A DNA stretch of 52,337 bases from an uncultured Clostridia bacterium. GTDB lineage: Bacteria; Bacillota; Clostridia; Christensenellales; Pumilibacteraceae. The stretch is from the NCBI GenBank assembly GCA_947175335.1, contig CAMWMF010000012.1, positions 1-52,337 on the forward strand, given 5' to 3'. Positions 4,884 to 41,000 of the stretch are shown in pieces (positions within the stretch are counted from its first letter, which is position 1; the number at the start of each line of letters is the position of its first letter). Below the pieces are notes generated by a model. That model ran no database searches. It was given only the letters and a program-made list of their open reading frames with translations, and was not told the DNA's origin. Made by a program: the position numbers and the translations under genes.

Positions 4884-4891
4884 AAAAGTAT

Positions 4892-6617: not shown

Positions 6618-6713
6618 TAGGTATTGTGCATATCTTGGTGCGCACACACAATATTTAGTATAAATGTATACATGAATTTGTAAAAATAAATACAAATTTA
6701 CGCCGTAAATCCG

Positions 6714-6742: not shown

Positions 6743-6793
6743 AGGAACGAGGGTAACGGATTGACATTTCCGTAACGCTTGGGAGCGCGAGTA

Positions 6794-7645
6794 ATGTTCG
6801 AACTGAGGAAAACCGGTATCGTCAAGCGGGCGTCTGCGTCACTGCTCGATGTGATACTCCTCGTTGTGTTAACAACGGGGTTCATGTTCATCCTCTCGCT
6901 TATTTGCAATTACAGCGATCAGGAAAAACTTTCCAACCAGTATTACGGAGAGTGGGAAGATTTCCGAAAAACGCATGTAGCGGCGGTCGCCGAATATTAC
7001 GGATACGACTATCAAACTACCGGCAGCGAATATACTATCACCAAAAACGGCGAAAAATCCTCGTTGGACGAGCTTATGAAAACGCTTGGCAATTCGAAAG
7101 GTGAGGACGCGGCTACCAAAGCCGCATACGATGCAAGCTTAAAGCTTACGCCCGTAGACAAGGTAAACTGGCAGTACCAATACGTATATAATCTACTCTT
7201 TATGATGATATCTGTCGGCTTGTTGCTTGCATTCATAGTGTTGGAATTTATTTTACCTCTTATATTTAAAAACGGACAAACGGTGGGTAAAAAGGTATTC
7301 GGTATATGCCTTGTTCGCCCCAACTGTGTCAAGATAACCAATTTATCGCTTTTTGCGCGAACTATACTCGGCAAATACGCAATAGAAACGATGTTCCCCG
7401 TGCTACTCGTATTCCTATTCATCTTCGGAGGACTTGGAATACTGGCGCTAATACTGTTAGCGGCATTGGCACTGCTGAATATCGTTTTGTTTTTTGCAAC
7501 AAAAAATAGAACACTCATTCACGATTTGCTTGCCTACACTGTAGCGGCGGATATGCGCACACAAATGATTTTCCAAACGGAAGACGAGCTTGTGGAAAAA
7601 AAGGCGCTCGCTCATAAAGAACTTGTAGCGCAGGCGAATGGTTGA
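6794..7645 (+). CDS. RDD family membrane protein
   Basis: A 283-residue polytopic membrane protein whose specific role is unknown. The N-terminus has the RDD-type pattern (R12 and A13, then D18 at the start of the first hydrophobic segment). After a ~90-residue hydrophilic extracytoplasmic loop come further transmembrane segments. The family motif GQTVGKKVFGICLVRP lies between helices two and three. The ATG at 6794 is chosen because GGGAG lies 8 bases upstream; an in-frame TTG at 6779 has no such site. RDD proteins have been linked to transport in some bacteria. Its position directly before a complete ABC importer suggests an accessory role, which is inference only. Confidence 0.82.
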   Translation: MFELRKTGIVKRASASLLDVILLVVLTTGFMFILSLICNYSDQEKLSNQYYGEWEDFRKTHVAAVAEYYGYDYQTTGSEYTITKNGEKSSLDELMKTLGNSKGEDAATKAAYDASLKLTPVDKVNWQYQYVYNLLFMMISVGLLLAFIVLEFILPLIFKNGQTVGKKVFGICLVRPNCVKITNLSLFARTILGKYAIETMFPVLLVFLFIFGGLGILALILLAALALLNIVLFFATKNRTLIHDLLAYTVAADMRTQMIFQTEDELVEKKALAHKELVAQANG

Positions 7646-7686
7646 TATAGGTTCAAAAAAATAAACAACAGAGAGCGGAAGAAAAC

Positions 7687-9621: not shown

Positions 9622-9624
9622 TGT

Positions 9625-10590
9625 ATGGCTAAAACGAGTACTAAAAATCAGTGGAAAGCTTGGTTATACTTGTTGCCGACGTTAGTTTTGCTCGGAGTAT
9701 TTACGGTATGGCCTATAATCAACACTGTCAGAATGTCGTTGTTGGAAGGCTATAACGGCCTTGCTATGATACGAGGAGAAACGTTCGAGTTCGGCTTTGC
9801 CAACTTTGTTGACGTAGCGACGTATGCCGGATTTATCAACTGTCTTGGCAACACATTGCTTTTGTGTGTTATTACGGTGCCTATTTCAACAATGCTTGCA
9901 CTTCTCATAGCTGTTGCACTCAATTCGATTAAGTTTATACGAAAGGGGATGCAAACCATATTCTTCCTGCCGTACGTTACCAACTCGATAGCAATCGGTA
10001 TGGTATTTATGGCTATGTTCAGTATGGTAGGCGGCAGCGCCACTAACGCGCCCGACTCGGTTGGTATTATCAATAATATCATCAAAGCGTTTGGCGGCAA
10101 GCCGATAAACTGGGTTAACGGAAAGATAAGCGGATATGATCCATCCGAAAGATGGGCCAACATGGCGGTGCTTATAATTTATATAGTATGGAATGCGCTG
10201 CCGTTTAAAATTCTCGTACTTTTGGGCGGACTTCAAGGCGTAAACAAACAGTATTACGACGCGGCCAAGATTGACGGAACTTCTCGCTTCCGCACGTTCT
10301 GGCGCATAACCGTTCCGCTGCTGTCGCCGATGATCGCTTACGTTGTAATAACCGGCTTTATCGGCGGGTTCAAGGAATATTCGAGCGTAGTCGGTATATT
10401 CGGCAATAACATGGGTCCTGCACACACTAATTTCAGAACCAATATGAACACCATGGTCGGATATATTTACGACAGTCTTAAAGATAACAACCAAGGACAG
10501 GCTAGCGCCGCGGCACTCATTTTGTTTGCTATCATATTTGTTGTAACAATGATAAATTTGTACGTAAGCAAAAAGAAGGTTCATTATTAA
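9625..10590 (+). CDS. CUT1-type ABC importer permease, MalF/UgpA-like
   Basis: First of two transmembrane subunits of the importer. The 321-residue protein has about six hydrophobic segments, starting with LYLLPTLVLLGVFTVWPII, the usual opening of MalF/UgpA-type permeases. The cytoplasmic EAA loop that docks on the ATPase is readable as YYDAAKIDGTSRFRTFWRIT followed by VPLLSPMI. Its ATG is 3 bases after the ATPase stop and the second permease follows after 12 bases, so the genes form one transcription unit. CUT1 importers usually take up oligosaccharides or polyol/phospho-glycerol compounds. The nuclease gene at the end of the unit raises the question of a nucleic-acid-derived substrate, which the sequence does not settle. 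Confidence 0.92.
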   Translation: MAKTSTKNQWKAWLYLLPTLVLLGVFTVWPIINTVRMSLLEGYNGLAMIRGETFEFGFANFVDVATYAGFINCLGNTLLLCVITVPISTMLALLIAVALNSIKFIRKGMQTIFFLPYVTNSIAIGMVFMAMFSMVGGSATNAPDSVGIINNIIKAFGGKPINWVNGKISGYDPSERWANMAVLIIYIVWNALPFKILVLLGGLQGVNKQYYDAAKIDGTSRFRTFWRITVPLLSPMIAYVVITGFIGGFKEYSSVVGIFGNNMGPAHTNFRTNMNTMVGYIYDSLKDNNQGQASAAALILFAIIFVVTMINLYVSKKKVHY

Positions 10591-10602
10591 GGAGGTGGGT
10601 AT

Positions 10603-11574
10603 ATGACGGAAAATATGACTGAAAACGTAAAAGAACAGGCAGTTGTTTCCGAGCAAGCTGCCCCGCAAGATAACGATATAGCCACTGCGGACAAGGTAAT
10701 GAAAAAGAGGGATATCGATGCGGTGTCGAAAAAGCAGCTTGTCGTCAAGATATTCGTTCAAATCGGGCTGTATATATTCCTCGGCATAATGGCGCTTGTC
10801 GTGCTGTTCCCGTTCTACTGGATGCTTATTTCATCTGTAAAGACTACCAGCGAATACAATCTGTCCGTACCGACGTTGTGGCCGCACCAGTTTCAATGGT
10901 CCAACTACGCCAAGGCGTTTGATGCCGACGGACTCAATCTGGGGCAGCTGTTCCTTAACACATGCATAGTTGGCATAGTATCCACATTGCTGTCGCTTAT
11001 AATCACGGTGCTTGCGGCATTTGCGTTTGCGCGGCTGGAATTCAAGGGCAAGAACATCCTGTTTGGCGCATTGCTGGCCACAATGATGATACCGGGCGAG
11101 CTGTTTACCGTAACCAACTATGTAACGATTAGCGACTTAGAGTGGCAAAACACGTATACCGTACTTATCGTACCGTTCCTTGTAAGCGTATTTTACATAT
11201 ACTTGCTGCGGCAAAACTTTATGCAAATACCCAACGAGCTGTATCTTGCAGCCAAGGTAGACGGATCGAGCGACTTCAAATACCTGTGGAAGGTTATGAT
11301 ACCGCTTGCGGCGCCTACGCTTGTTTCCATTACCATACTTAAAATGATGGGCGCTTGGAACACTTATGCTTGGCCCAACTTGGTAATTACCGATAGTGCC
11401 AAACAGCTGATTACGGTTGGATTGCGCGGACACTTTACCACGGAATACGGTATACCCGATTTCCCTGCGCAAATGGCCGCTGTTGTTTTGGTCACTATAC
11501 CGCTATTCTTGGTATTCTTGTTCTTCCGCAAATACATAATGCGCGGAGTATCGAAGAGCGGACTTAAAGGATAA
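10603..11574 (+). CDS. CUT1-type ABC importer permease, MalG/UgpE-like
   Basis: Second permease subunit, 323 residues. A hydrophilic ~45-residue N-terminal extension, longer than usual for MalG-type proteins and rich in Glu, Gln, Lys and Asp, precedes the first helix (about 50-72). The EAA loop is clear as LYLAAKVDGSSDFKYLWKVM followed by IPLAAPTL. A full-consensus GGAGGTG Shine-Dalgarno lies right after the preceding stop. Together with the ATPase, the upstream permease and the downstream binding protein it makes a complete CUT1 importer. Confidence 0.92.
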   Translation: MTENMTENVKEQAVVSEQAAPQDNDIATADKVMKKRDIDAVSKKQLVVKIFVQIGLYIFLGIMALVVLFPFYWMLISSVKTTSEYNLSVPTLWPHQFQWSNYAKAFDADGLNLGQLFLNTCIVGIVSTLLSLIITVLAAFAFARLEFKGKNILFGALLATMMIPGELFTVTNYVTISDLEWQNTYTVLIVPFLVSVFYIYLLRQNFMQIPNELYLAAKVDGSSDFKYLWKVMIPLAAPTLVSITILKMMGAWNTYAWPNLVITDSAKQLITVGLRGHFTTEYGIPDFPAQMAAVVLVTIPLFLVFLFFRKYIMRGVSKSGLKG

Positions 11575-11600
11575 AAAACTAAACTTAAAGGAGAAAGTTT

Positions 11601-13031
11601 ATGAAAAAGAAGCTTGGTGCAATCGTGTTGGCAGGTATGATGGCATGCTTGTCGTTTGGCGGTCTTGTCGGCTGCGGAAAAGGCGGCAAAGGCAAAGTAA
11701 AAGACTTTGTCATGCCCGAAGGTGGCTTTGACATGGAAAAGCAGGTAGAAATTAAATTCTATCACACAATGGGTCAGAGCAAACAAAAAATTCTTGCAGA
11801 CTACATCGAGAAATTCAACAAGATTTATCCCAACATCAAGGTTGATGCCAGCCGTGTATTCGGTAAATACGAGGACGTGCGCGACACGATAGTAACCGAA
11901 ATATACGCAGGTGCTCAGCCTAACTTGGCATATTGCTATCCCGATCACGTAGCAATGTACAACGAGGCAGGCGCAGTGCTTCCGTTAAACGATTTCCTTC
12001 CCGACGGCGATTTTAAGGATATAAAGGTAAAAGTTGCCGAAGATAAAGAAGAACCTATCGGCTACACCAAGGAGCAAAAGGAAGCGTTCTTCGAGGCCTA
12101 CTATAACGAGGGCTATCAGTTTGGCGACGGCTCGACTATGTACACGCTTCCGCTTGCCAAATCGACCGAGGTTCTTTACTATAACAAGAAGTTCTTTGAC
12201 GCCAACGACCTTACCGTTCCTACAACGTGGGACGAAATGGAAAGCGTTTGCCAACAGATAAAGACTATTGCTCCGACCAAAACGCCGCTTGGCTACGACT
12301 CGGAAGCAAACTGGTTTATTACGATGTGCGCACAGCTTGATTCTCCGTACACATCGGCTACCGGCGAAAAATACCGTTTTAACAACGAAACCAATCGCAA
12401 TTTTGTTACTCGGTTCAAGGGCTGGTTTGACAAAGGTTACGTTTTGACTTCCGAAACCAATAACGGTTCTTACACTTCCGGCGCGTTCACGGCACAAGAC
12501 GTATATATGTGCATCGGCTCTTCCGCCGGCGCGTCCTATCAAATGCCGGATAGAGAGACGGTAGGCGGTGTAAGCACGCGCAAGTTTGAGGTAGGTATAG
12601 CGCCTATACCGCAGATTGATAAGACAAATCCCAAGGCGATATCTCAGGGCCCGTCCATATGCATATTCAAGGATAACGACCCGCAAAAGGTGCTTGCCAG
12701 CTGGTTGTTCTCCAAATTCCTTACCACAAGCATCGATTTCCAAGCCGAGTTTTCCTTTGACTCCGGCTACGCTCCGGTAATCAAGACGGCGACGGAAAAC
12801 AAAATTTACCAGGCCGGTATTGCCGCTGCTGACGGCTTTGATAACTTAATCCAAACGGCAGTTAAGACTTGTATGGCCAATTCGAATTCGTACTTTACTT
12901 CGCCCGCGTTTGTCGGATCGTCGAGAGCACGTGACGAGGTAGGTAAGCTTATGGCTGCGGTCTTCAACGGAACGCCTGTAAACCAAGCGTTTGAAGACGC
13001 GATATATCAGTGCAATCACTTTGCAGGTTAA
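11601..13031 (+). CDS. Extracellular solute-binding lipoprotein, family 1
   Basis: Captures the importer's substrate outside the membrane. The 476-residue protein has a lipoprotein signal (lipobox LVGC, C25) and the family-1 binding-protein pattern: KFYHTMGQSKQKILADYIEKF near the mature start, a FNKIYPNIKV strand-helix segment, and a central ALPLAKSTEVLYYNKKFF-like segment (TLPLAKSTEVLYYNKKFF). The length fits the family. An AAAGGAGAAAG Shine-Dalgarno precedes the ATG. It follows the two permeases as expected for the system and lies 2 bases upstream of the nuclease-lipoprotein start, so that gene belongs to the same unit. The ligand cannot be read from the sequence. Confidence 0.92.
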   Translation: MKKKLGAIVLAGMMACLSFGGLVGCGKGGKGKVKDFVMPEGGFDMEKQVEIKFYHTMGQSKQKILADYIEKFNKIYPNIKVDASRVFGKYEDVRDTIVTEIYAGAQPNLAYCYPDHVAMYNEAGAVLPLNDFLPDGDFKDIKVKVAEDKEEPIGYTKEQKEAFFEAYYNEGYQFGDGSTMYTLPLAKSTEVLYYNKKFFDANDLTVPTTWDEMESVCQQIKTIAPTKTPLGYDSEANWFITMCAQLDSPYTSATGEKYRFNNETNRNFVTRFKGWFDKGYVLTSETNNGSYTSGAFTAQDVYMCIGSSAGASYQMPDRETVGGVSTRKFEVGIAPIPQIDKTNPKAISQGPSICIFKDNDPQKVLASWLFSKFLTTSIDFQAEFSFDSGYAPVIKTATENKIYQAGIAAADGFDNLIQTAVKTCMANSNSYFTSPAFVGSSRARDEVGKLMAAVFNGTPVNQAFEDAIYQCNHFAG

Positions 13032-13033
13032 TT

Positions 13034-14533
13034 ATGAAAAAGATTAAAACGTTATTATTATCTATATTAGCTGTTGTCGTGTTTGCGTTGTGCGTCGCTT
13101 GCGGCGGCGATGACGGCAACACAACAACTAAACCCGGTAACACGGGGAACCCTCCCGGCGGAACCCAGCAGATTGAAGCTGTCGACTACGCAAGCAAGCT
13201 TAAACTCGACTTGACCAGCAATACCAAAAAGCAAGAGGTTACCGTTCGCTTGTACGTAGACGGCGACACCACGCATTTTACGCCGGTGTTAAATTCCACG
13301 TTGGCAACCAACCCTTCGTCTGACTTTACGGGCAGTGACGGTTACATTAAGGCGCGGTACATAGCGATCAATACTCCCGAATCGACGGGCAAGATCGAGC
13401 AGTGGGGCGGCAAAGCGTCCAAGTTTACGCGCGGCAGGCTGGAAAAAGCCACGTCCATTATAGTAGAATCGGACGACACCCAGTGGAATTTGGACGGCAA
13501 CGGACGTTACATACTTTGGGTATGGTACAAGACGGCTGACTCGGACGAGTACAAAAATCTTAACGTAGAAATTTTGCAGGAAGGTCTTGCGCTCGGCTCG
13601 TCGGTTGCCAACAACCGTTACGGCGAATCGGCTATGAACGCCATGGTGCAGGCGCAAAAGCTTAAACTTTATCTTTACTCGGGACAGAAGGATCCCGACT
13701 TCCCGGGCGATGCGGTAAAGGTAACAATGAAGGAGCTTCGCTGCAATATAGAGGACTATGTAGGCAAACGCGTAAAGGTAGCCGGTTTGATTACGTCCGA
13801 GTACGATAACTGCGTATATGTAGAGAACGTTGATGCGGAAACCGGTATACATTACGGCATACAAGTATTTTACGCTTATGATACAGCCGTGCTTAGCATA
13901 CTCAAAACGGGCAATTGCGTAAGCGTTGTCGGCGTTGTTATGTACTACGAGGCAGGCTCGACATATCAAATTTCCGACATTAAGTACAGCAGATTCCACC
14001 CCGAAGACCCCGACAATTCTCAGCTTATAGAGGAAGACGACGAGGACTATGTATCGTACCCCATGTTCACCGAAGTAAGCGCCCACGATATCGTATCGGG
14101 CAAGCTTACGGTCGAATTGGAGCAGGCTAAGGTAGACGAAGACGGCAACGTTGTAAAGGATGAAGACGGCGAAGTCGTTACCGAAATAGTCAATCGTGAA
14201 TTCGATTACGGTTTTGTGGTTTGGCACACGTCTGTCACGGTTAAGAACTTGACCGTAATCGATGCCTATACGACCAAAACCGGCAACAGCAAGGGCGCGA
14301 TTTCGCTCACTTGCAGGGCCGAGGACGGCACTATCATTACAGTCCGCACAACAGTGTTGACTAACGAAGACGGCGAAGTAATCGAGGAGAGTAAGTACTA
14401 TGACAGAACGACTAAAATAGGCAAAACGATAACCGTAAAAGGCATTGTCGATTACTACAAACAGGAAGGTCACACCGAGGGCAACTATCAAGTCAAAGTT
14501 TACCACGTCGACCTAATTGAAATCCTCGACTAA
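13034..14533 (+). CDS. Lipoprotein with staphylococcal-nuclease-like and OB-type domains
   Basis: Predicted surface nuclease attached to the importer operon. The ATG at 13034 opens a clean signal peptide with lipobox CVAC (C23); earlier in-frame codons lie inside the binding-protein gene. The SNase-like domain spans about 68-215: DGDT (76-79), KARYIAINTPE (106-116), GRYILWVW (157-164) and NVEILQEGLAL (177-187). Equivalents of the S. aureus residues D21, R35, E43 and R87 are visible, but the D40 calcium ligand is replaced by N113. An OB-fold-like module (about 228-335, GKRVKVAGLI...) follows, then a second region from about 350 of uncertain fold with an acidic stretch. Nucleic-acid hydrolysis is likely but not certain because of the N113 substitution. 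Confidence 0.85.
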   Translation: MKKIKTLLLSILAVVVFALCVACGGDDGNTTTKPGNTGNPPGGTQQIEAVDYASKLKLDLTSNTKKQEVTVRLYVDGDTTHFTPVLNSTLATNPSSDFTGSDGYIKARYIAINTPESTGKIEQWGGKASKFTRGRLEKATSIIVESDDTQWNLDGNGRYILWVWYKTADSDEYKNLNVEILQEGLALGSSVANNRYGESAMNAMVQAQKLKLYLYSGQKDPDFPGDAVKVTMKELRCNIEDYVGKRVKVAGLITSEYDNCVYVENVDAETGIHYGIQVFYAYDTAVLSILKTGNCVSVVGVVMYYEAGSTYQISDIKYSRFHPEDPDNSQLIEEDDEDYVSYPMFTEVSAHDIVSGKLTVELEQAKVDEDGNVVKDEDGEVVTEIVNREFDYGFVVWHTSVTVKNLTVIDAYTTKTGNSKGAISLTCRAEDGTIITVRTTVLTNEDGEVIEESKYYDRTTKIGKTITVKGIVDYYKQEGHTEGNYQVKVYHVDLIEILD

Positions 14534-19832: not shown

Positions 19833-20552
19833 TTAATTCTTACTTAACTTTTCGTGCGCTGCATAATCGGTGGAATCGACGCGAAGCGGGGATATGGTGA
19901 TATGTCCGGTAAACGTTGCGTCGGTGTCGAGTTCTAAATTGCGCGTGCCTTTGTAAAGACTGATAAGGCGGGGCATTACCATATCGTTGGGCAAAAAGTC
20001 GAACGTGTCGCTGTATACCTTTCCGCCAACCTTTGTTATAAGTATTTCGTCGCCATCGGCGGGTACGTTTACGTTCAGTATATTTGTGTATTCCAACAGC
20101 TTGCGCTTTTCTATTTCGGCGAATATTCTGTCGAGGTTTTTTACCGCGTTGTCAAACGAAGCGTAGTCCGATGACAGCGCTATCGATTTTGCGCCGCAGT
20201 TGGACGCCTCGAAGCAAGCGCCCACGGTACCCGAATAATGAATATCAGCGCCGAGGTTAAAGCCTTTGTTTATGCCGGACAATACAAGGTCGAATTTTTT
20301 GCCCATTCCAAGCATCGCCACGCGCACGCAGTCGGCAGGGGTGGAGTCCACGCTGTACGCTTCTATGCCGTCAAATGCGTCGTCTACCTTTTTTACCTCG
20401 TAGCTGTTATGTATTTCAATCGAGTGGCTTGTTCCGCTTTGTTGTACCTTGGGCGCAAACACGCAAACCTCGCCCTTGGTCTTTGCCCAAGAAACAAGGT
20501 GCTTTATTCCTTCTGCGTAAATACCGTCGTCGTTTACAACAAGTATTTTCAT
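19833..20552 (-). CDS. surE: 5'/3'-nucleotidase SurE
   Basis: Metal-dependent phosphatase acting on nucleoside 5'- and 3'-monophosphates; some members also act on short polyphosphate. The 239-residue length is typical. The start MKILVVNDDG carries the metal-binding ND-D pair. SGTSHS, DSTPADCV and SGINKGFNLG...YSGTVGACFEA are the other conserved blocks. The start overlaps the end of the preceding DHH gene by 4 bp, so the three minus-strand genes are translationally coupled. Its neighbours are predicted to turn short oligonucleotides into mononucleotides, which SurE could dephosphorylate. That links it to the nucleic-acid catabolism seen at 1-14533. Confidence 0.95.
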   Translation of the reverse strand: MKILVVNDDGIYAEGIKHLVSWAKTKGEVCVFAPKVQQSGTSHSIEIHNSYEVKKVDDAFDGIEAYSVDSTPADCVRVAMLGMGKKFDLVLSGINKGFNLGADIHYSGTVGACFEASNCGAKSIALSSDYASFDNAVKNLDRIFAEIEKRKLLEYTNILNVNVPADGDEILITKVGGKVYSDTFDFLPNDMVMPRLISLYKGTRNLELDTDATFTGHITISPLRVDSTDYAAHEKLSKN

Positions 20553-21541
20553 AGTTTATCTCCGTTTGTCGCTTTATACTCGCCGAGCAATTTGTCCGCT
20601 TCAGCTATAAGCGATTGCATTTCTTCCGCCGTATAGCACGTTGCACCCGCCGACATATTGTGTCCGCCGCCGTGGTATTTGAGTGCAAGGTCGTTTATAC
20701 CCAAGTACCGCGACCGCACACGTACGCGGATATTGTTCTTAGCCACGTTGTCTATAAACGCTATCCAAATAAGACTGCCGCGAATATATTTAAGCTCGCC
20801 GACGGCTTCGCTCGCTTGTTCCAGCGTTAAATTCAGCCGTTCTTGCGTGGCTTTGTCCACGTATATGTACGCTACGCCGTTGGGCGTTATTTTCAGGTTT
20901 TCGTATACGTAAGATTTAAGCCTAAACGCTTCCAGGTCGTCGGTGTACAGGTTGGCAAACAGCGTTTGCGTGTCTATACCTATATCGAGCAGTGCGCCCG
21001 CAAGCCGCATTGTTTCGCCCGTAACGTCGTCGTGGCGGAACCGTCCGCTGTCGGTGACCATGCCGCAGTATATGTACGTTGCCGCTTCCTTGGTTATTTT
21101 AAGCTTATCTTTAAACGTCACGTAAAAGTCGGCTATCATCTCGCTTGCTGACGAGCGGTAGTCTTCTATCCAGCACAAGTCGCCGTACGGCTTGTCGTCT
21201 ATGTGGTGGTCTATCTTTATCAGCTCTTTTGCCTTTTGGTAGTTGCGGTTGGATATGCGATCCGCCGTGCCCGTGTCGATTATTATTTGCAATGCGCCGT
21301 CGTACACTTCGTCAATTTTGTCGTCGGGTATATCGTCGCCGCCGCCCAAAAAGGCGAGGTGAGCGGAATTATCGTCGTTAATCAAAAATATCTTTTTGTT
21401 CGGATAGGTGGCGCGAAGTATGCTGACAAGGCCTTTAGTGGAACCTATGGCGTCGCCGTCGGGGCGGATATGCCGCGATACTATAATCTTGTCGTAGCTC
21501 TCTATCTTTTGCAGGATTTTTCTTTTGAGTTGCTCGTTCAT
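20549..21541 (-). CDS. DHH-family oligoribonuclease/pAp phosphatase, NrnA-like (second in operon)
   Basis: Predicted to degrade short RNA oligomers (nanoRNA) and/or dephosphorylate 3'-phosphoadenosine 5'-phosphate. The 330-residue protein has the DHH-domain motifs RPDGDAIGS (about 24-32), IIIDTGTADR and IDHHIDD, followed by a DHHA1 domain with the GGGHNMSAG substrate-binding motif near the C-terminus. It is clearly paralogous to the gene at 21546-22478, with matching motif order but extensive divergence. Only 4 bp separate them. Two tandem NrnA-type genes suggest split substrate ranges, for example RNA dimers versus longer oligomers or c-di-nucleotide products, though this is inference. Confidence 0.9.
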   Translation of the reverse strand: MNEQLKRKILQKIESYDKIIVSRHIRPDGDAIGSTKGLVSILRATYPNKKIFLINDDNSAHLAFLGGGDDIPDDKIDEVYDGALQIIIDTGTADRISNRNYQKAKELIKIDHHIDDKPYGDLCWIEDYRSSASEMIADFYVTFKDKLKITKEAATYIYCGMVTDSGRFRHDDVTGETMRLAGALLDIGIDTQTLFANLYTDDLEAFRLKSYVYENLKITPNGVAYIYVDKATQERLNLTLEQASEAVGELKYIRGSLIWIAFIDNVAKNNIRVRVRSRYLGINDLALKYHGGGHNMSAGATCYTAEEMQSLIAEADKLLGEYKATNGDKL

Positions 21542-21545
21542 ATTA

Positions 21546-22478
21546 TTACTCCGTTACAGCCAGCGCGTCCAAATCGTCAAGCAGCTTCATTGCGGTTGCC
21601 TTGTCGGGGACTATGCAGCCGCTCGCTTTTTTGTGTCCGCCGCCGCCGTACTTTACGGCAATGGGGTTTATGTTGGGATTGTTGGAGCGCAGCTCGCAGT
21701 GCACGCCGTCGTCGCTTTCGGTAAAGTTTACCCACATATGCACGCCCTTTATGTCGCGCATAAGTCCTACAAGCCCTGTGGACACGATGGGGACGTCGCC
21801 GGTTTGGGGCAGTTCCTCGCGCGCCGTGTATATGTATGCGACGTTGTGCGGGGTGAATTTGATTTTGTGCATATTGTTCGCTTTATTCAATATCTCCGAA
21901 AAATCCTCGGCGTTCAAGTTGTAGTTGAGCGCGTTTAGGTCTATCGGCTGCGACATCAAAAACGCAGCCAGCTCAAAGGTTCGCGACGATACCGAATCGA
22001 AAGCAAACCGTCCGCTGTCGGTGACCATGCCCATATACAGCATTGTTGCCGATTGCAGCGACAGCTTCCAGCCGCATTCCTTTGCCATCAACGTGACCAT
22101 GCCGCATGCGCTTTCGAACGTGCTGTCAATCACTTCCACGTCTGCTACCTTGTCGCATAAAATGTGGTGGTCTATGCGCACCGTCGCTGCGGCTGTCTTG
22201 TACCGCTGGTCGCAAACCATATGCGCTCCGCCGCAATCCAAAACTATTGCGAGCGCGTTGTTAAAATATTCGTCGGGGATTTCGTCCATAACCGTGTCGA
22301 TAAAGGGCAGGCGGGTAGCGGGATCGCCCACCATATACACGTCCTTGCCTTTAAAGTTATCTTTAATAAGCGTCGCAAGCCCGATTTGGCTGCCTATCGC
22401 GTCGCCGTCGGGGTAAGAATGGCGGTGTATTATTATCCGCGGATACTTTTTAATCAACTGTAATACTTGTTCGAACAT
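21546..22478 (-). CDS. DHH-family oligoribonuclease/pAp phosphatase, NrnA-like (first in operon)
   Basis: First gene of the minus-strand operon, 310 residues. The motifs are YPDGDAIGS (about 22-30), IVLDCGGAH, IDHHILCD and the C-terminal YGGGGHKKASG, which together define the DHH/DHHA1 family with its two-metal active site. A GGAGAC Shine-Dalgarno precedes the ATG and a consensus promoter lies 45 bp further upstream. Functionally it should overlap the following paralogue (nanoRNA turnover, pAp hydrolysis). A cyclic-dinucleotide phosphodiesterase role is less likely because no sensor or membrane domain is attached. Confidence 0.9.
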   Translation of the reverse strand: MFEQVLQLIKKYPRIIIHRHSYPDGDAIGSQIGLATLIKDNFKGKDVYMVGDPATRLPFIDTVMDEIPDEYFNNALAIVLDCGGAHMVCDQRYKTAAATVRIDHHILCDKVADVEVIDSTFESACGMVTLMAKECGWKLSLQSATMLYMGMVTDSGRFAFDSVSSRTFELAAFLMSQPIDLNALNYNLNAEDFSEILNKANNMHKIKFTPHNVAYIYTAREELPQTGDVPIVSTGLVGLMRDIKGVHMWVNFTESDDGVHCELRSNNPNINPIAVKYGGGGHKKASGCIVPDKATAMKLLDDLDALAVTE

Positions 22479-22522: not shown

Positions 22523-22551
22523 ATTATATCATAACACCGTATATTTGTCAA
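22523..22551 (-). promoter_or_regulatory. Promoter of the DHH-DHH-surE operon
   Basis: On the minus strand, consensus TTGACA (22551-22546), a 17-bp spacer and a perfect TATAAT (22528-22523). It diverges from the promoter of the TIR gene 25 bp away. Confidence 0.88.
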
Positions 22552-22575
22552 TACCGAATTTGTTTTTGTCGGATA

Positions 22576-22604
22576 TTGCAAAAGTAGATTATATGTGTTA
22601 TAAT
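22576..22604 (+). promoter_or_regulatory. Promoter of the TIR-NTPase-TPR-kinase gene
   Basis: TTGCAA (22576-22581), 17-bp spacer, perfect TATAAT (22599-22604), leaving a ~40-nt leader before the GTG start. I see no obvious operator. Confidence 0.82.
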
Positions 22605-22651
22605 ATAAACCGTTTTATGATATATTGCTTAACATTGCGGAGGAAGTTTAG

Positions 22652-25600
22652 GTGAAGATATTTATAAGCTATGGCAGAGACAATTACAGCTTCGTAGTCG
22701 AGCGCGTTGTAAAAGAGCTTTGCGCCGAGTTTGGCGACGACAGCGTTTTATTTGACAAACAGCTTAAACCGTCATACAACTTTGACGAGAGCTTACAGGA
22801 AATGATTACTGCCGCGGACGTAGTCGTACTGTTTATGACACCTCATTCCGTTCGCAAAAACGAAAGCGTGTGTTTGGACGAGATTGCGTTTGCTCGCGGC
22901 AACAAGACGCCTATAATTCCGATAATGCTTGTAGATTGCACTCCGCCGCTTTTGGTGTCGCGCATACAGTGGTTGGATTTTCGCGGCAGCTTTTTGGACG
23001 GAGATATAATAGAGGAGAACTTTAAAAAATCGTTCGGGGAGCTTGTCGATGTTATTAACGGCAAAAAGGAGCTAGACCATGGCGGCGCGCAAAACGAGCT
23101 TATTACGTTGTTAGAACCGTTCGACTTTGGCGCGCAAATGGCAGGTAGCGTAAAAAATTACGTTCCCAGGCAGCAGATGCAGCAAAAGGTTAAGTGCTGG
23201 ATATGCGACGGCGGCGAATCGTTTTTTTGGTTGACGGGCAATCCCGGTACGGGAAAAAGCAGTTTTTCCAGTTGGTGCGCATTGGAAAACGACGAGGCGG
23301 TAGGCGCGCACTTTTGTTCGTACTATCTTCCGCAAACTTGCGACGCAAAACGGCTTTTTAAGCATTTGGCGTACCACTTGTGCATGAAAAGCCCCGAGTA
23401 CGAGGAATATGTTCTTAATAATATAGACTTTCATGCGCTTAACGATTTGTCCGTTTCGGAGGTTTTTGCCACACTTTTCGTTAAGGCGGCAGGCGCAATA
23501 ACCGCGCGGCAAAACATGCTGCTCATTATCGACGGCATAGACGAGATGGAGATGTCCGTTATCAAAGAGGTGTCGGCGGCGTTGTTCGCTAACCGACTGT
23601 ATATCCCGCGCTGGTTAAAGTTTTTTATGACCTCGCGACCCGATCCCGCGCTTACGGGGCAGCTGTCTTTTATTAAGCCGGTTTCGGTCAGCGACGAGAT
23701 AGAGGACTATATACGAAGCGAAGCGGCGGCCAGAGGACTTACGTTGAGCGACAATATTGTAAATACGTTGCGTGAACACAGCGAGGGCAGCTACTTGTAC
23801 GTATCTGGCATTTTGGACGATATTGCACGCGACGGCGAGGATTGTCTTGCGCATTTGCCGAGCGGTATGGGCGCGGTATTTACCAAGTATTTCGACAGGC
23901 AGTCGCGTAACTTTAATGCACCCGAAACCACCAAAACGCTTTTGCAGGTTATGTGTGCCGCAAAAGAGCCGCTACCTGCCACTGCGCTTGCAAAAATCAT
24001 AGGAGTGTCGGAATATTCAGTGCGGCAGGTGGTTGGCGAGCTCGGTTCATTTATTACCGCCGCCGACGGCGGTTTAAGGTTTTACCACAAGCAGTTAAAG
24101 GATTGGCTTGTCGACGAAAGCAATACACATTATTGGGTGAGCGTGGCTGACGGCAATAGGTTGATTGCCGATTGGATAGCGCAAAACATAGACGATTTTA
24201 TTTTCGACGACTACATGGTCAAGTACGGGTTTATACATCTTATAGAGGAGAAAAAGTACGACGCAGTCCATGGCATACTTGCCGAAAACGAACTCCTTGC
24301 CGAAAATGCTTTTCTCGACAGCGTACTTTCGCTTGCCGCGGACGGTAAGTTTTCCGTAATATTCAAGGCGATAAAGCATCTTTGCACGCAATACGGCGAG
24401 TCCGATTTTCCGCTTCGCCGCACGATAAAGCACATGATGGAAAACGGCTGTTACGACAAGTGCGAGCAGTACATGAAAAGCGTATTCAGCTCGAAGTCGA
24501 CCGAGTGGATTAATAAATTTGCGTTGCTTATACACAGGCGCGTAAGCGGCAATATAGTAGAGGTGCGCGCGCTTTGCAACGAAAGCTGGGATAACGCGCC
24601 TGCAGACGTGCGTGCGGACATAGAGTTTTATCTCGGCGAGGCGTGCCGAGAAAACGGCGATATGGAAATAGCTTGCGGACATTACAAAAATGCTATTGAG
24701 CTTGCGGCTAAGTTTCCCAATAACTCCGCCAACTATTTGAGCCGCTTAAAGCTTATAGACATCGCTTACGTGGAGGGTAAGATCGATTTTGCTCTTTCCG
24801 AACTCAAATCGCTAAAAGTCGGGGAGTCTTTGCGGCAGGCAAACTACTTGAAAAATCGGCTTATGGGGCACGTCAAGGAAGCGCTCGGTTATTTTGACGA
24901 AGCAAAGGCGTTTTACATAAAGTCGCTCGGCATAGCCAAGAGAATAAAAAAGAACTATCTTGTTATGGAATCTTTTAACAGTATCGGCGGCGTGTGTTCG
25001 GATATCGACGAGGGATTTATGTATCTTGCCAACGGTAGAAAAATAGCGCGGGCTAACAATTACCGACTGGAATACGGCAAAAACATGACGTTCACGTCAA
25101 GATTGTTTTTGATGGACAATAAACCGATTGAGGCGGCGGACGCTGCGCGCGAGGCGGAAACCTGCTTGCTGGACGTCGGATATATGCCGGGGGCGGCAGC
25201 GGCAAAGATGCACTACGCCGTTGCACTGTACAAGCTGGGTAACTACGCCGCGGCTAAGCAATTATTAGAGGAAAGCAACGAAATATATAATAGGGAAAAC
25301 ATATACCCGCATCTTCATCTCGCCGCGATAGAGTGGCTTATTCGCGCTAACCAGCGACTGCGCTGCTATTCGCCTTTAAACACGGACGTAGATAAACTTC
25401 TCGAAGCTAACAAAAATCTCGAATATATGAGTAAAACGGTAGACGCCGTTAAGCGCGGCGTCCTTGCCAATACGGTAATGAACGAGTTTGTAAAGCTACG
25501 CGAAACGGGCGCTTACAGCATCGGTTACCATAACAAAAACTACGTTGTGGAAGCGGAGGGCAACAAGTACGTTGTGCGCGAGCCTGTCGAGGACTTCGAG

Positions 25601-26494
25601 TCCGTCGATATTCGCGTAAACGACGAAAACGATATGCTCATGTTTGCCTCGCAATCGTTGCCGTATTTAAACGCGCCGCAGTATATAGGCAGTGCATACA
25701 TGGGCGACGTGTTATGCGCTATACACGGGTTTGTGGACGGCAAATCGCTGGGCGTTATGTACGGCGATCTTGCGCCCATTGACGACTGTCTTGTAGACGT
25801 CTTGGCGGAGAATATAGCAAAAATGCATTTACAAGCCGTTCCCGAAAAGTTTACGGCAGGCTTACCGTACGGAACGGTGCGCGAGTTTTACGACTTTGAA
25901 AAGGGATTTTTGCGGCGGCTTATCGAAAAATGGTACGCGCTTATGAAGCCTTTTTACGACTCACTCGGATTGCCGGACATTGCCGTTATGCTTGACGACG
26001 GGCAAAACGTGTTGACCGAGCGACCGTTTTCGCTTTGTCACTGCGACGTCCATCGGGGGAACTTGCTTTGGGATGAAGACAGGGGCGTAATGCATTTTAT
26101 CGATTGGGAGCTAACGCAAATTGCCGACCCCGTTTACGATATTGCAATTCATTTCCATAAGATTCACTACACCGCGGCGCAGGAAAAACGCTTCCTCGAT
26201 TTGTACAAGGCTACAACCGGGTTCGATATTCCCGATATTGAAAATCAAATTGATTATTACCGTAAAGCGGAAGAGGTAAAGAGCAACATTATCGACGGCA
26301 TACGTTGCATTATGGAAATACCTCAAACTTACGACGACACCGCCAAACGGTTTGCCGAGCGCTATCTGTTTAAGCTTAATTATTTGTCGGCGCGGTTCGG
26401 CTTTAAGCTTAAAGTAAACTCTGCGGAAGAACTGTACAAAATTCTCTGCGACAACAAAGCAAGAGTAGCTGACATTATAAACGGTAAAGCGTAA
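22652..26494 (+). CDS. TIR-STAND(NACHT-type) NTPase-TPR-APH kinase fusion protein
   Basis: A 1280-residue four-part protein starting at GTG 22652 with a GGAGGAAG Shine-Dalgarno. The TIR domain is at about 1-135: MKIFISYGRD, then AADVVVLFMTPHS and CLDEIAFA, where E77 sits at the position of the NADase glutamate. A STAND-type NTPase follows at about 165-350, with Walker A GNPGTGKSS (196-204), Walker B LLIIDGIDEM (290-299) and a TSRPD sensor (327-331). A winged-helix-like region runs to about 515. A helical TPR array spans about 640-910. The C-terminal kinase is of the aminoglycoside/choline phosphotransferase type (about 955-1250), with catalytic loop H1130-x-D1132-x4-N1137 and metal-binding D1151 (IDWE). 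All key residues are intact. TIR-STAND-TPR proteins are typical of bacterial immunity; a C-terminal APH-type kinase is not a combination I know. Confidence 0.88.
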   Translation: MKIFISYGRDNYSFVVERVVKELCAEFGDDSVLFDKQLKPSYNFDESLQEMITAADVVVLFMTPHSVRKNESVCLDEIAFARGNKTPIIPIMLVDCTPPLLVSRIQWLDFRGSFLDGDIIEENFKKSFGELVDVINGKKELDHGGAQNELITLLEPFDFGAQMAGSVKNYVPRQQMQQKVKCWICDGGESFFWLTGNPGTGKSSFSSWCALENDEAVGAHFCSYYLPQTCDAKRLFKHLAYHLCMKSPEYEEYVLNNIDFHALNDLSVSEVFATLFVKAAGAITARQNMLLIIDGIDEMEMSVIKEVSAALFANRLYIPRWLKFFMTSRPDPALTGQLSFIKPVSVSDEIEDYIRSEAAARGLTLSDNIVNTLREHSEGSYLYVSGILDDIARDGEDCLAHLPSGMGAVFTKYFDRQSRNFNAPETTKTLLQVMCAAKEPLPATALAKIIGVSEYSVRQVVGELGSFITAADGGLRFYHKQLKDWLVDESNTHYWVSVADGNRLIADWIAQNIDDFIFDDYMVKYGFIHLIEEKKYDAVHGILAENELLAENAFLDSVLSLAADGKFSVIFKAIKHLCTQYGESDFPLRRTIKHMMENGCYDKCEQYMKSVFSSKSTEWINKFALLIHRRVSGNIVEVRALCNESWDNAPADVRADIEFYLGEACRENGDMEIACGHYKNAIELAAKFPNNSANYLSRLKLIDIAYVEGKIDFALSELKSLKVGESLRQANYLKNRLMGHVKEALGYFDEAKAFYIKSLGIAKRIKKNYLVMESFNSIGGVCSDIDEGFMYLANGRKIARANNYRLEYGKNMTFTSRLFLMDNKPIEAADAAREAETCLLDVGYMPGAAAAKMHYAVALYKLGNYAAAKQLLEESNEIYNRENIYPHLHLAAIEWLIRANQRLRCYSPLNTDVDKLLEANKNLEYMSKTVDAVKRGVLANTVMNEFVKLRETGAYSIGYHNKNYVVEAEGNKYVVREPVEDFESVDIRVNDENDMLMFASQSLPYLNAPQYIGSAYMGDVLCAIHGFVDGKSLGVMYGDLAPIDDCLVDVLAENIAKMHLQAVPEKFTAGLPYGTVREFYDFEKGFLRRLIEKWYALMKPFYDSLGLPDIAVMLDDGQNVLTERPFSLCHCDVHRGNLLWDEDRGVMHFIDWELTQIADPVYDIAIHFHKIHYTAAQEKRFLDLYKATTGFDIPDIENQIDYYRKAEEVKSNIIDGIRCIMEIPQTYDDTAKRFAERYLFKLNYLSARFGFKLKVNSAEELYKILCDNKARVADIINGKA

Positions 26495-26523
26495 GCGTTA
26501 CGCAATAGGTAATTTGTTTTGCC

Positions 26524-26571: not shown

Positions 26572-27936
26572 ATGAATTACGACGTTATTATTATCGGTGC
26601 CGGCCCGGGTGGAATATTCTCTGCCTACGAGCTGCGCAACAGCGGACTGCGCGTGGCGGTATTCGAGGAGGGCAACGAGCTTTCCAAGCGTAAATGCCCG
26701 ATCGACGGCGACAAAATCAAGTCGTGCATAAGCTGTAAAACGTGTTCTATTATGTCCGGCTTCGGCGGCGCCGGCGCGTTTTCGGACGGCAAATATAATA
26801 TTACAAACGACTTTGGCGGAAGCCTTTACGAGCATATCGGCAAGAAAACCGCCTTGGATTTGATGGAGTACGTGGATAGTATTAACGTTGCACACGGCGG
26901 TGCGGCGACCAAGCGATATTCCACGGCGGGTTCGCCGTTCCACAAAATCTGCACGCAGAACAAGCTGCACCTTTTGGATGCAAACGTGCGCCATTTGGGT
27001 ACGGATATTAATTACACCGTGCTTTCCAATCTTTACGCCGAGCTTAAAGACAAGGTGGACTTTTACTTTAATACACACGTCGGAGACATCAAAAAGACCG
27101 CGAGCGGCTTCGAGGTCGTGGCGGACAAAAGTTATTCGTGCAAGTATTGCATTGTTTCGGCGGGCAGGAGCGGCAGCAAGTGGATGGAAAAGGTGTGCAA
27201 CAATCTCGGCATTGTTACGCATTCCAACCGCGTTGATATCGGCGTAAGGGTGGAGCTTAACGCCGAGGTGTTCGAGCATATAACCGACGAGCTTTACGAG
27301 AGCAAAATAGTATACACTACCGAAAAGTACGAGGACAGAGTGCGCACCTTCTGTATGAACCCGCACGGCATTGTCGTCAACGAAAATACCAACGGCATTA
27401 TTACCGTGAACGGGCACAGCTTCGAGGACGAATCGCGCAAGACCAACAACACCAACTTCGCCTTGCTTGTGTCCAAGCACTTCTCTGAGCCGTTCAAGGA
27501 CAGCAACGGCTACGGCGAGAGCATTGCGCGGCTTTCAAACATGCTCGGCGGCGGCGTTATAGTGCAACGCTTCGGCGATATGGTGCGCGGCAGGCGCAGT
27601 ACGCAAAAGCGTATCGAGGAAAACCTTGTTGTGCCCACGCTCAGCGCGACGCCCGGGGATTTGAGCCTTATTCTGCCTAAGCGTATTCTCGACGGCATAA
27701 TCGAAATGATTTACGCGCTCGACAAGGTTGCAAACGGCACGGCAAATGACGAAACGCTTTTGTACGGCGTAGAGGTCAAGTTCTATAATATGGAAGTGGA
27801 AACGGACGAAAACCTCGAGGTCAGTCACAAAGGGCTTTATATAATAGGCGACGGCAGCGGTGTGACGCACTCGCTTTCGCACGCGTCGGCAAGCGGTGTG
27901 CACGTCGCGCGGCATATCCTTTCGAGAATAGCGTAA
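26572..27936 (+). CDS. FAD-dependent dehydrogenase, COG2509 type
   Basis: A 454-residue flavoprotein of unknown substrate. The N-terminal Rossmann dinucleotide-binding motif IIGAGPGGIFSAYEL (about 6-20) ends in the acidic VFEEG strand. A cysteine-rich segment C-P...CISCKTC (about 43-60) and SGFGGAGAFSDGKYN are characteristic of the COG2509 family. The C-terminal block YIIGDGSGVTHSLSHASASG closes the FAD site. An AGGAGA Shine-Dalgarno lies close to the ATG, and a terminator follows, so it is a single-gene transcription unit. Members are common in anaerobic Firmicutes; no function is firmly assigned that I know of. Confidence 0.9.
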   Translation: MNYDVIIIGAGPGGIFSAYELRNSGLRVAVFEEGNELSKRKCPIDGDKIKSCISCKTCSIMSGFGGAGAFSDGKYNITNDFGGSLYEHIGKKTALDLMEYVDSINVAHGGAATKRYSTAGSPFHKICTQNKLHLLDANVRHLGTDINYTVLSNLYAELKDKVDFYFNTHVGDIKKTASGFEVVADKSYSCKYCIVSAGRSGSKWMEKVCNNLGIVTHSNRVDIGVRVELNAEVFEHITDELYESKIVYTTEKYEDRVRTFCMNPHGIVVNENTNGIITVNGHSFEDESRKTNNTNFALLVSKHFSEPFKDSNGYGESIARLSNMLGGGVIVQRFGDMVRGRRSTQKRIEENLVVPTLSATPGDLSLILPKRILDGIIEMIYALDKVANGTANDETLLYGVEVKFYNMEVETDENLEVSHKGLYIIGDGSGVTHSLSHASASGVHVARHILSRIA

Positions 27937-38071: not shown

Positions 38072-41000
38072 ATGACTAATACAGCTCGAAAGGCACTCAA
38101 CAAAAAACTAATACTTATTTTGATGGCGGCATTGTTGGCGCTGGTCTTGGCATTGCAGGTTGTGTATGCGCCCGCTATTGTTTCCGTGCCCAATACCAAC
38201 CACGGCGGCGATACGACTACTGCCGACCCTATGAACGGCGTTTCGGTTACGTACAAGCAGGCGGACAACGGCTTGGCCGGTTCGGACTATATGCTTACCG
38301 ACGAAACAGTAAGAACCGCATCGAATAAGTCCACGCCTGCACCGAGCAAAACTGTTGACGTAATTATATCTCTTGACGGTACACCAATGATGAAATATGC
38401 GACGGACAACGGATTGTCGGTCGCGCAGGCTGTCGCCACCGAGGGTGGACAAAAGAATTTGGAAAACCTTCGTCGCATACGCGAGAGCGCGGCGAGTGCT
38501 TTATCTAATTATATTATAGAAAGGCGTTATGATTACGGCACGGTAATGAACGCGTTTTCCGCTTCCGTGCGCTATGGCGATATTGCGGCAATCGAGCGCA
38601 ACAGCCATGTCCAAAACGTATTACTTTCCGAAACTTATCTCGCGCCGCAAGCGGTTACCGAAAACTACGTTGACGTTTATGAGTCCGGTATATTCAATTC
38701 GTCGGGCGTTGGCTACGACGGCACGGGCACGGTTGTTGCCGTTGTCGATACAGGCACGGACTACACGCACGAAGTGTTTAACATGGAGCTTGACTCCGAC
38801 ACACTTGCTATTAACAAGGACACGGTTAAGGCGATTGCACCTGCGCTTACCGCAACGTCGCTTTCTGCAATGCTGGGTGAGGCGATAGACGAGGACGATC
38901 TTTACCTTACAACCAAGCTGCCCTATGCATACGATTATGCAGATAAAGACGCCAATGTTTACCCGCACGAATCGCACGGCACGCACGTTGCCGGTATTAT
39001 AGCGGGCAAATCCAACACGATTACGGGCGTTGCTCCCGGTGCGCAAATAGCTACATTCAAGGTTTTCTCCGACTACAACAGCGGCGCAAAGACCGAATGG
39101 ATTTTGGCTGCGCTTAACGACGCCGTATTGCTCGGCGTAGACGCCATAAATATGTCGCTCGGCACGTCGTGCGGATTTTCGCGCGAGGTGGACGAGTTGC
39201 TTATAAACCAAGTTTACGATTCTATTAACGAAGCGGGCATATGCTTGGTTGTTGCAGCGAGCAACGACGGATCGTCGGCGCAAAGCAGTACTTGGGGTAA
39301 CACCAACCTTGCAAGCAATCCCGATTCAGGTACGGTAGGTTCGCCCGGATCTTACAATGCAGCGCTTTCGGTTGCTTCGGTCAGCGGCGTAAAAACCAAA
39401 TACTTTATGTACAACGGCAAGGAAAAATACTTTGCCGAATCGCGCTTGATCGGCAAAATCGAATCTAACGATTTTGTTGCCGGTTTGCTTGGCGACAAAA
39501 CGGAAGGAGAGTTCGAGTATGTTGTTGTTCCCGGTGTAGGCGGGGACAGCGATTATGCCACAGTGGACGTTATGGGCAAAATCGCGGTTGTCAAGCGCGG
39601 CGTAACAAACTTCGAGGACAAGGTGCGCGCGGCACGCGATCAAGGCGCCGTAGGCGTAATAGTATATAACAACGTTTCCGGTACGATTTCCATGTCCGTC
39701 GGTACACAACTGATGATACCCAGCTGCTTCATCACAATGGACCTTTCGAAGGATATGGTAGCGGCGGGCAGCGGCAAAATCAAGCTGTCCACGTCGTACC
39801 TTGCCGGCCCGTTTATGTCCGACTTTTCCAGTTGGGGTTGCTTGCCCAACCTTATTCTCGCGCCCGATATCACTGCGCATGGCGGCGAGATTAACTCGGC
39901 AATAGCAGGCGGCGACCAGTATGACAAGCTTAGCGGCACTTCCATGGCGAGCCCCAACCTCGCCGGTGCGCTTATATTGGTACGCGAATTCGTAAAGGAA
40001 AAGGAACCCAATGCTTCCACCATAGCCATACGCGATGAATCGTACAGCCGTATGATGAGTACCGCAACGATAGTCAAAAACGAGGATGGCAATCCCTATT
40101 CGCCGCGTAAGCAGGGCGCCGGTATTGCCGATATTTCTCATTCCATAAACACTCCCGCATATCTTACTGTGGACGGTTTGAACAAACCCAAGCTTTCGCT
40201 CGGCGACGATCCCGAACGCACGGGTGTGTATGAATTGAAGTTCAATCTTGTCAATGATTCCAGCAGCGCCGTAAGCTATTCGCTCGATCAGTACGTTATG
40301 ACGGAAAGCATGTCCAGCGACGATCGCACAGTTTCGGAAAAAGCGCATTTGTTTACCGACACTACCAATACCTATTCTGTAAAGACAAGAAAGGGTAGCG
40401 CTAAGCTTACGGGGCGCAGCGTTTTGGTCAGCGGTTACGGCGAAGCGGAAATTACGGTCAAAATCGAGCTTTCCGCAGAGAATAAGCAGTATTTGAACAG
40501 TCTTTTCCTTAATGGTATGTTTGTGGAAGGCTACGTGTTGCTCAAAAACCAAAACCCCCATGGCATAGACCTTAACATACCTTATATGGCGTTTTACGGC
40601 GACTGGGCTGACGCGCCGATGTTGGACGTTACAGAATACGAAGTTGGCGAATCCGCAGTAGATACTTCGGTATTGGAAGACGAAAAGCTTAAAGCCGACG
40701 TTCACGGCACACTGCCGTACTCGGGCTTTTACTCGGCATGGTCGACGGATAATATAGGCTATTACGGTATGGGCGCGTTTGCATTCAACCTTGCAAGCGG
40801 CTATACTAAGCCCGTAACGCGCGAAAGATACGCCGCGCTTACAACCAACTCCGACGGCGACTATATGTTGTATATGATTAATGCCGGCTTGTTGCGTAAC
40901 GCAAAGTATGTGGAAATGGAAATACGCAACAGCGCAACGGGCGAGCTTATATGGACGGGCGTCGACTACAATGCGCGCAAGTCTCATTCCAGCGGTGGTG

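Follow-up and report, generated by a model that had tools for sequence, protein, structure and literature searches.

We describe here a gene in a 52,337-nucleotide stretch of DNA from an uncultured Clostridia bacterium (contig CAMWMF010000012.1; the whole stretch is called the window below). The gene encodes one chain in which an N-terminal TIR domain, a STAND NTPase, a winged helix, a TPR region and a C-terminal kinase of the aminoglycoside phosphotransferase (APH) type follow one another. We give about an even chance to the reading that the protein is a single-chain switch akin to TNLs and NLR-like proteins, whose TIR domain would cleave nicotinamide adenine dinucleotide (NAD+) and would be gated by the TPR region and the enzyme module. 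All of its domains and catalytic motifs are intact:

22652-26494, + strand: whole gene for the 1280-residue TIR-STAND-wHTH-TPR-APH protein (GTG start; frame open over 1280 codons; orthologues)
22658-22990, + strand: TIR domain, residues 3-113 (Pfam TIR_2, 3.1e-16)
22880-22882, + strand: E77, putative NADase glutamate, within CLDE (conserved in 15/15 aligned proteins)
23183-23638, + strand: STAND NTPase of NPHP3_N type, residues 178-329 (Pfam NPHP3_N, 1e-17)
23237-23263, + strand: Walker A motif GNPGTGKSS, residues 196-204, with K202 inside (sequence)
23519-23545, + strand: Walker B motif LLIIDGIDE, residues 290-298 (sequence)
23927-24268, + strand: winged-helix segment, residues 426-539 (Pfam HTH_TANC1, 4.5e-7)
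24626-25294, + strand: TPR region, residues ~659-881 (TPR_12 in three stretches and weaker TPR models)
25517-26224, + strand: APH-type kinase, residues 956-1191 (Pfam APH, 1e-21; PDB profile matches)
26039-26104, + strand: kinase catalytic motif H1130-x-D1132...N1137 and D1151 (sequence and alignment)

The models TIR_2, NPHP3_N, HTH_TANC1, TPR_12 and APH all matched above the Pfam curated cut-off, the best TPR_12 stretch being residues 659-697 (9.8e-10). The window gene gave the only TIR_2 match in the whole genome. A preliminary description, made from the DNA letters without database searches, had proposed an intact 1280-residue frame with TIR, STAND NTPase, TPR and APH kinase in this order, and had named E77, both Walker motifs with K202, and the four kinase residues. 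Frame, order and residues were all borne out; the winged helix is a segment that it had overlooked.

The TIR-STAND part is strongly conserved. C74, E77, G199, G201, K202, D294 and R329 were invariant in all 15 aligned proteins, three of which belong to the window group. When the family profile was compared with the PDB, the best matches were the TIR proteins Cat1, bacterial TIRs, AT1G72930, RPP1, AbTIR, Roq1 and SARM1, and those to RPP1 and Roq1 extended from the TIR into the NTPase. Cat1, AbTIR and SARM1 in this set are NADase TIRs. With a TIR above cut-off that carries the conserved glutamate, Walker A and B motifs, a winged helix and repeats after the NTPase, the protein can be placed among predicted TIR-STAND switches, and the proposed likeness to NLR-like proteins is supported. 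At E <= 0.1, the window protein (P0001) matched a single PADLOC model, ThsB, weakly and with its TIR part (1.4e-5), and it matched no Avs or bNACHT model. An NCBIfam match of the TIR to ThcB4 (0.0022) was far under the cut-off. Seven whole family proteins were scanned against PADLOC (genomes are denoted by G numbers, G000 being the window genome). Six matched TIR-containing models (ThsB, Aga TIR, SAVED-TIR, PDC-S66 and alike), there with the TIR part only, the G827 protein had no match, and none of the seven matched an Avs model. The methyltransferase part of the G404 protein matched mad2 (5.2e-17), and the G332 and G510 proteins gave weak matches on the NTPase side.

Domain identity is based on these profile searches, and fold searches carry little weight here because of the low quality of the two AlphaFold models (mean pLDDT 44.4 and 42.1). 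The structural check that the preliminary description had called for thus gave no proper confirmation: the TIR part of one model retrieved mostly TIR structures among the 50 of 846 matches listed, none of these at E <= 0.001, and the kinase model, with choline kinases in the first rows at TM-scores of 0.12-0.24, gave no usable fold match.

Full-length orthologues were found in the sister species G015 and G008 (89% and 87% identity). The G012 orthologue lies on two contig ends (97-98% identity), and we take a stop among the first codons of one piece to be a contig-end artefact. Matches occurred in 5/61 relatives, own genome counted, namely these four genomes and G018, which encodes a distant TIR-STAND protein; the records of the close relatives are metagenome-assembled entries named 'uncultured Clostridia bacterium' and 'Clostridiales bacterium'. 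The window gene is maintained under purifying selection. For three species pairs, the ratio of nonsynonymous to synonymous substitution (dN/dS) was 0.075, 0.056 and 0.073 over the whole gene and at most 0.113 in every named domain, with the highest values in the TIR-NTPase linker (0.187) and the tail (0.161). The APH domain (0.058, 0.042 and 0.057) was about equal to the NTPase and the TPR region. Because full-length orthologues, a low dN/dS in each domain and an end-to-end homologue of 25% identity in another family (G827, below) coincide, the layout is more than chance. On the same grounds a chance open reading frame (ORF) was rejected, as was an assembly chimera, since other assemblies have the identical layout. 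Synonymous divergence (dS) from G015 was 0.75, like that of four flanking genes (0.62-0.86); from G008 it was 1.30, above the flanking genes (0.59-0.90), and the gene tree groups G015 with G008 (90/83), in conflict with the species tree. The G008 lineage may therefore have undergone recombination or changed faster.

The gene lies between a divergent DHH-DHHA1 gene and a downstream gene for an FAD-dependent protein. The close orthologue of the former and the latter occur in the same 5 of the 20 genus genomes. In G004 the matched ends of the two lie 158 nt apart and the window gene is exactly missing, with the DHH, DHH, SurE and FAD genes retained. A species tree from an NrnA housekeeping gene of 20 genomes gave (G015,(G004,(G008,(G012,G000)))), with support of 100/99 for all five genomes, of 96/97 for the clade without G015 and of 91/88 for the one formed by G008, G012 and G000. 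Since G004 is nested among gene-bearing species in this tree, loss would be the simplest reading of its empty site.

A comparison with more distant relatives suggests that the C-terminus is a slot for exchangeable modules. The 1290-residue protein of G827, a genome of another family within the order, can be aligned, kinase included, to residues 3-1218 of the window protein (315/1274 identical, 25%; 1e-85), and the G827 gene overlaps a PHP phosphoesterase gene by 4 nt. In G404 a methyltransferase is fused at the C-terminus (Methyltransf_23, 3.6e-19), and a separate APH gene lies 98 nt upstream. G333 and G822 carry a fused cysteine-rich, DUF3109-like tail; the DUF3109 match in G822 (1.4e-5) is under the cut-off, and G333 has no Pfam match up to E 1. 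Elsewhere the enzyme is encoded by an adjacent gene: a metallo-beta-lactamase-fold (MBL) gene overlapping the TIR-STAND gene by 26 nt (G332), a HAD gene 9 nt downstream (G385), an inositol phosphatase gene overlapping by 8 nt with a further MBL upstream (G018), a methyltransferase gene overlapping by 4 nt (G113), and an MBL overlapping by 23 nt, then a shortened inositol phosphatase frame 31 nt on (G510). Across 11 relatives with a complete view, four have a fused module (APH in G827, methyltransferase in G404, DUF3109-like in G333 and G822) and five have an enzyme gene that overlaps or lies at most 9 nt away (G332, G385, G018, G113, G510). This count leaves out G329 (in pieces), the second G510 copy (cut by the contig end), G516 (match without TIR) and G820 (5' part missing, near-identical to G822 with the same tail). 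The upstream MBL of G018 (L012:7506-8240, -) overlaps the called TIR-STAND start, and its best Pfam match is Anti-Pycsar Apyc1 (3.5e-12, under cut-off).

Partners of one type turn up in different genomes, here as a fused module and there as a free gene. Identity is 37.6% between the fused G404 and the separate G113 methyltransferase (245 aa), 29.8% between the G332 and G510 MBLs (252 aa) and 43% between the G333 and G822 tails (165 aa); APH is fused in the window protein and G827 and is a free gene in G404. This recurrence argues for a working link between switch and enzyme, the HAD case being weak by itself.

The kinase residues H1130, D1132, N1137 and D1151 are kept in both orthologues and in G827. 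The window kinase has HxDxxxxN and D-W-E motifs, and the former together with the metal-binding Asp allows its assignment to the APH kinase family. Its profile matched spectinomycin phosphotransferase, choline kinase LicA and APH(3') in the PDB; NCBIfam returned solely matches far under cut-off, thiamine kinase first. By BLAST, the nearest proteins outside its own group were plasmid-borne kinases that stand alone, from Streptomyces (100 bits) and Nocardia (98 bits), with G827 next (80 bits); for the G827 kinase, the Nocardia kinase came first (100 bits) and the window group second. The motif G-[YHF]-[HY]-N-x-N is common to the window, G827 and stand-alone actinobacterial kinases and lacking from the G404 kinase; the G165 APH fragment does not span this region. 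Two of three plasmid kinases (L094, L095, L096) adjoin a GntR or HTH regulator gene, and the third is separated from one by a single opposite-strand gene. The end-to-end alignment favours a single origin of the window and G827 fusions, and the closeness to actinobacterial kinases would also be compatible with two independent fusions; on this question the split in the APH tree is weak (71/66) and long branches meet. As the kinase sits within a putative switch protein, we rejected a resistance gene. Profile A4, made of three near-identical APH rows and used at E <= 1e-8, picked out no more than G000, G012 and a short APH frame that stands alone among 396 genomes sampled from the order, and no more than G000 among 398 from the phylum. 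These counts say little on how frequent the fusion is, because the order sample included G404, whose separate APH gene A4 missed, and neither sample included G827.

The TIR-STAND part itself is patchy. A search with it (A1) matched 11/396 genomes of the order at E <= 1e-8. An 11-row TIR-STAND alignment (A5), searched at E <= 1e-20, matched 3/398 genomes of the phylum and, around individual relatives, 1/81 (G510), 1/81 (G404), 5/69 (G385) and 1/78 (G332), with the centre genome counted and the sets overlapping. TIR_2 and NPHP3_N were above cut-off in 12/12 relatives, scanned over their full length except for the second G510 copy, where the contig end set the limit. In the TIR-STAND tree the window group stands with G827 and G172 (88/92, not starred), where long branches meet. 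No relative was found in viral contigs by scans with P0001, A5 or a 6-row APH alignment (A6), or in phage records (50,697 for P0001) with P0001 or the G510 protein; plasmid searches returned solely matches to the APH part or to portions of STAND or TIR.

Some relatives have further peculiarities. The TIR-STAND sequence of G329 (L077:3423-8573) is seemingly broken into several tandem frames, one scanned piece of which has TIR and winged helix. A zinc-ribbon-like segment precedes the TIR in G385, G333, G369 and G822 (L071, L073, L076, L090), recognised by Zn_Ribbon_YjdM under cut-off in G369 and G822 and by eye in G385 and G333. In G510, a RelA/SpoT and RyR protein (L083:1813-4407, -; SLOG/LSDAT match under cut-off) lies near the second TIR-STAND copy, and a TrkA_N and RyR protein (L082:1841-3634, +) upstream of the first.

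Activation of TNLs and of bacterial TIRs assembles their TIR domains, and NAD+ is cleaved. Because this behaviour is established for TIR-STAND proteins, TIR assembly and NAD+ cleavage would also be expected of the window protein. In the resting state, the STAND NTPase, winged helix and TPR region would keep the TIR domains separate from one another. Once the TPR region and the C-terminal kinase module read a signal, nucleotide exchange on the NTPase and oligomerisation would follow, and the assembled TIR domains would cleave NAD+ and stop the cell, most likely as a response to infection, possibly by phage, or to stress. The kinase would most likely be a sensing or bait part whose substrate, product or catalytic state is read; our second choice would be a regulatory enzyme acting on a small molecule. 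The variety of modules at one position is best fitted by a sensing or bait part, and a kinase under such strong constraint is more easily understood as an enzyme or a binder of metabolites than as a decoy that evolves fast.

Several observations weigh against a gated NAD+-cleaving switch of this kind. The strong purifying selection on the APH and TPR parts is unlike that of the usual arms-race decoy, and the AlphaFold models are too poor for placing the kinase on the switch. Two of the 11 relatives have no recognised enzyme alongside (G172, whose neighbours were viewed as ORFs only, and G369, with a small DUF4279-like frame, under cut-off, 9 nt downstream). Adjacency may be chance in compact genomes, above all for the common HAD in G385, and 9/11 is a raw count, uncorrected for such chance pairs. 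Finally, no defence gene was recognised nearby (PADLOC on nine neighbours, Pfam on 29 window proteins from part of the ORFs), the 29 proteins being mostly of housekeeping or uptake type.

The preliminary description had favoured a two-effector protein, in which TIR and kinase are both outputs and the kinase, after activation of the switch, phosphorylates a small molecule of the cell. An intact kinase motif under purifying selection would suit this, and Kaur et al., in passages on related conflict systems, count APH-type kinases among the domains that are effectors or vary (PMC7159879, PMC8195603). However, relatives hold unrelated modules at the same place, a methyltransferase or a cysteine-rich domain, or leave it empty with an enzyme gene alongside, and a second-killer role shared by all of these is hard to see. 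The two-effector proposal is thus not established, and we regard it as unlikely; an enzyme with a sensing, bait or accessory role would explain the module variety no less well than a second killer would. Quite improbable, in our view, is a nucleotide cycle in which a nucleotide signal tied to the TIR product would be produced or removed by the kinase together with phosphoesterases encoded alongside, and the response thereby tuned or ended. Both APH-fused genes adjoin phosphoesterases whose best NCBIfam models include pAp phosphatases, which suggests a nucleotide link: the divergent window neighbour matches NrnA (5.3e-72), and the G827 PHP gene matches RNase RNM (6.4e-34) and 3',5'-nucleoside bisphosphate phosphatase (1.6e-33). 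Likewise, the G332 MBL matches RNase Z and cyclic-nucleotide phosphodiesterase, and the G018 inositol phosphatase matches HisN first and CysQ lower (1.6e-19). Yet every one of these matches is under the curated cut-off, the folds concerned are general, and G004 keeps its DHH, DHH, SurE and FAD genes without a TIR gene.

The same parts could also form a metabolic or stress regulator outside immunity, in the manner of a MalT-like STAND and TPR protein that reads a metabolite. The gene is chromosomal, syntenic in sister species and of low dN/dS, has no recognised mobile or defence genes around it and no match in the 50,697 phage records or the viral contig scans, and actinobacterial plasmid kinases similar to the window kinase lie beside or one gene off GntR/HTH regulators in 3/3 regions. 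Set against this are the N-terminal TIR with its conserved NADase residues, the patchy occurrence (11/396) with an exact absence in one nested species, and the RelA/SpoT-RyR and TrkA-RyR neighbours of the G510 copies. We give little credence to this regulator.

If the gated NAD+-cleaving switch is taken further, the window protein might represent an undescribed bacterial TIR-STAND-TPR family with an exchangeable slot for small-molecule enzymes (kinase, methyltransferase, MBL, inositol phosphatase, HAD, PHP), which are either fused or encoded next to the gene. The enzyme would then be a guarded or reporting part, like the integrated domains of plant NLRs, or kinase and phosphoesterase would run a nucleotide-signal cycle that sets the TIR switch. 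We offer this broader proposal tentatively and think it somewhat doubtful. Should the slot sense, bacterial NLR-like proteins would resemble plant NLRs in acquiring new recognition through the uptake of enzymes, and swapping a single module would be a way of testing what such switches monitor. With a TIR-STAND protein that has a kinase built in, one could also ask whether the threshold of NAD+-depleting immunity is set by the phosphorylation of small molecules.

The surroundings of the gene contain the following features:

22576-22604, + strand: promoter-like site TTGCAA-17-TATAAT with TG ahead of the -10 (10 of 12 positions)
22639-22643, + strand: GGAGG ribosome-binding-like site, 8 nt ahead of the start (sequence)
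22549-22566, no strand: imperfect direct repeat of 18 nt, left copy, 83% alike to its right counterpart (1 of 19 two-copy families)
26503-26520, no strand: right copy of the 18-nt direct repeat (weaker in the G015 and G008 orthologues)
21546-22478, - strand: divergent neighbour, DHH-DHHA1 (NrnA-like), kept where the window gene is absent
20549-21541, - strand: second DHH-DHHA1 protein (context)
19833-20552, - strand: SurE (Pfam, context)
26572-27936, + strand: FAD-dependent protein, downstream, with its own promoter-like site (context)

All four gene-bearing species show the string TGTGTTATAAT upstream of the gene; the region holds 12 promoter-like sites, against 6.3 expected. Because the gene has its own promoter-like and ribosome-binding-like sites, and the divergent and downstream neighbours each have their own 12-of-12 promoter-like site, it may be a self-contained unit. 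The 18-nt repeat is present in a single copy at the G004 empty site; two-copy repeats this short are often chance. The divergent DHH-DHHA1 neighbour is not an obligate partner. SurE and the two NrnA-like DHH-DHHA1 genes (19833-22478, -) are additional to a more distant NrnA-like gene present in 20/20 genus genomes. Among the nine neighbours scanned, the sole PADLOC match was a weak one of the FAD protein to a desaturase model, and neither these nor the 29 Pfam-scanned window proteins included recognised mobile genes. The architecture search that had been suggested did find an end-to-end homologue in G827; a defence-island context did not appear, with no recognised defence or mobile neighbours in the two scans.

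Elsewhere in the window, a run of genes at 1122-14533 (+) encodes a cytidine deaminase, a calcineurin-type phosphoesterase, a pyrimidine nucleoside phosphorylase, endonuclease I, an ABC transporter with a solute-binding protein and a staphylococcal-nuclease domain protein, a set that would be fitting for the use of external nucleic acid. At 38072-45538 (+) lies the gene for a subtilase of 2488 residues with BspA-type leucine-rich repeats (LRRs), followed at 45484-47550 (+) by that for a second LRR protein with Listeria-Bacteroides repeats.

In Thoeris, a TIR protein is paired with a ThsA-type effector. The window protein resembles ThsB and ThcB through a weak TIR match and differs by its STAND, TPR and APH parts; with the weak ThsB match alone and no ThsA model among the nine neighbours scanned, a known Thoeris system was rejected. 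Avs and bNACHT proteins consist of an effector, a STAND NTPase and a repeat or sensor region, and Avs proteins recognise phage terminase or portal. The window protein shares the effector-STAND-repeat layout and differs by its C-terminal kinase and by matching no Avs or bNACHT model in PADLOC at E <= 0.1, and a known Avs (AVAST) system was rejected on the Avs result.

Among the full-text literature matches listed, we found no description of a TIR-STAND-TPR-APH architecture, which is weak evidence as subscription titles were mostly outside this scope. The label 'undescribed' given in the preliminary description may thus stand for the architecture itself, but not for APH-type kinases in related conflict systems, where they are already known. 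Passages in two papers list active APH-type small-molecule kinases as occasional variable domains, alongside TIR, of vWA-MoxR-VMAP, iSTAND2 and TERNS3 systems (PMC7159879, PMC8195603), whereas the window protein has all of its parts in one chain with TIR and STAND. No vWA, MoxR or VMAP partner was reported among the 29 window proteins scanned in Pfam.

With APH and choline-kinase enzymes the protein shares HxDxxxxN, the metal-binding Asp and the D-W-E motif, and it differs from them in that the kinase is fused to a putative TIR-STAND switch. The repeats of plant TNLs are LRRs; the window protein instead has TPR, an NPHP3_N-type NTPase and an APH-type kinase, and an integrated-decoy role would here be an analogy only. 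What it has in common with the plant TNLs RPP1 and Roq1, and with NLRs that carry integrated domains, is the combination of TIR, STAND NTPase, winged helix and repeats with a foreign C-terminal domain.

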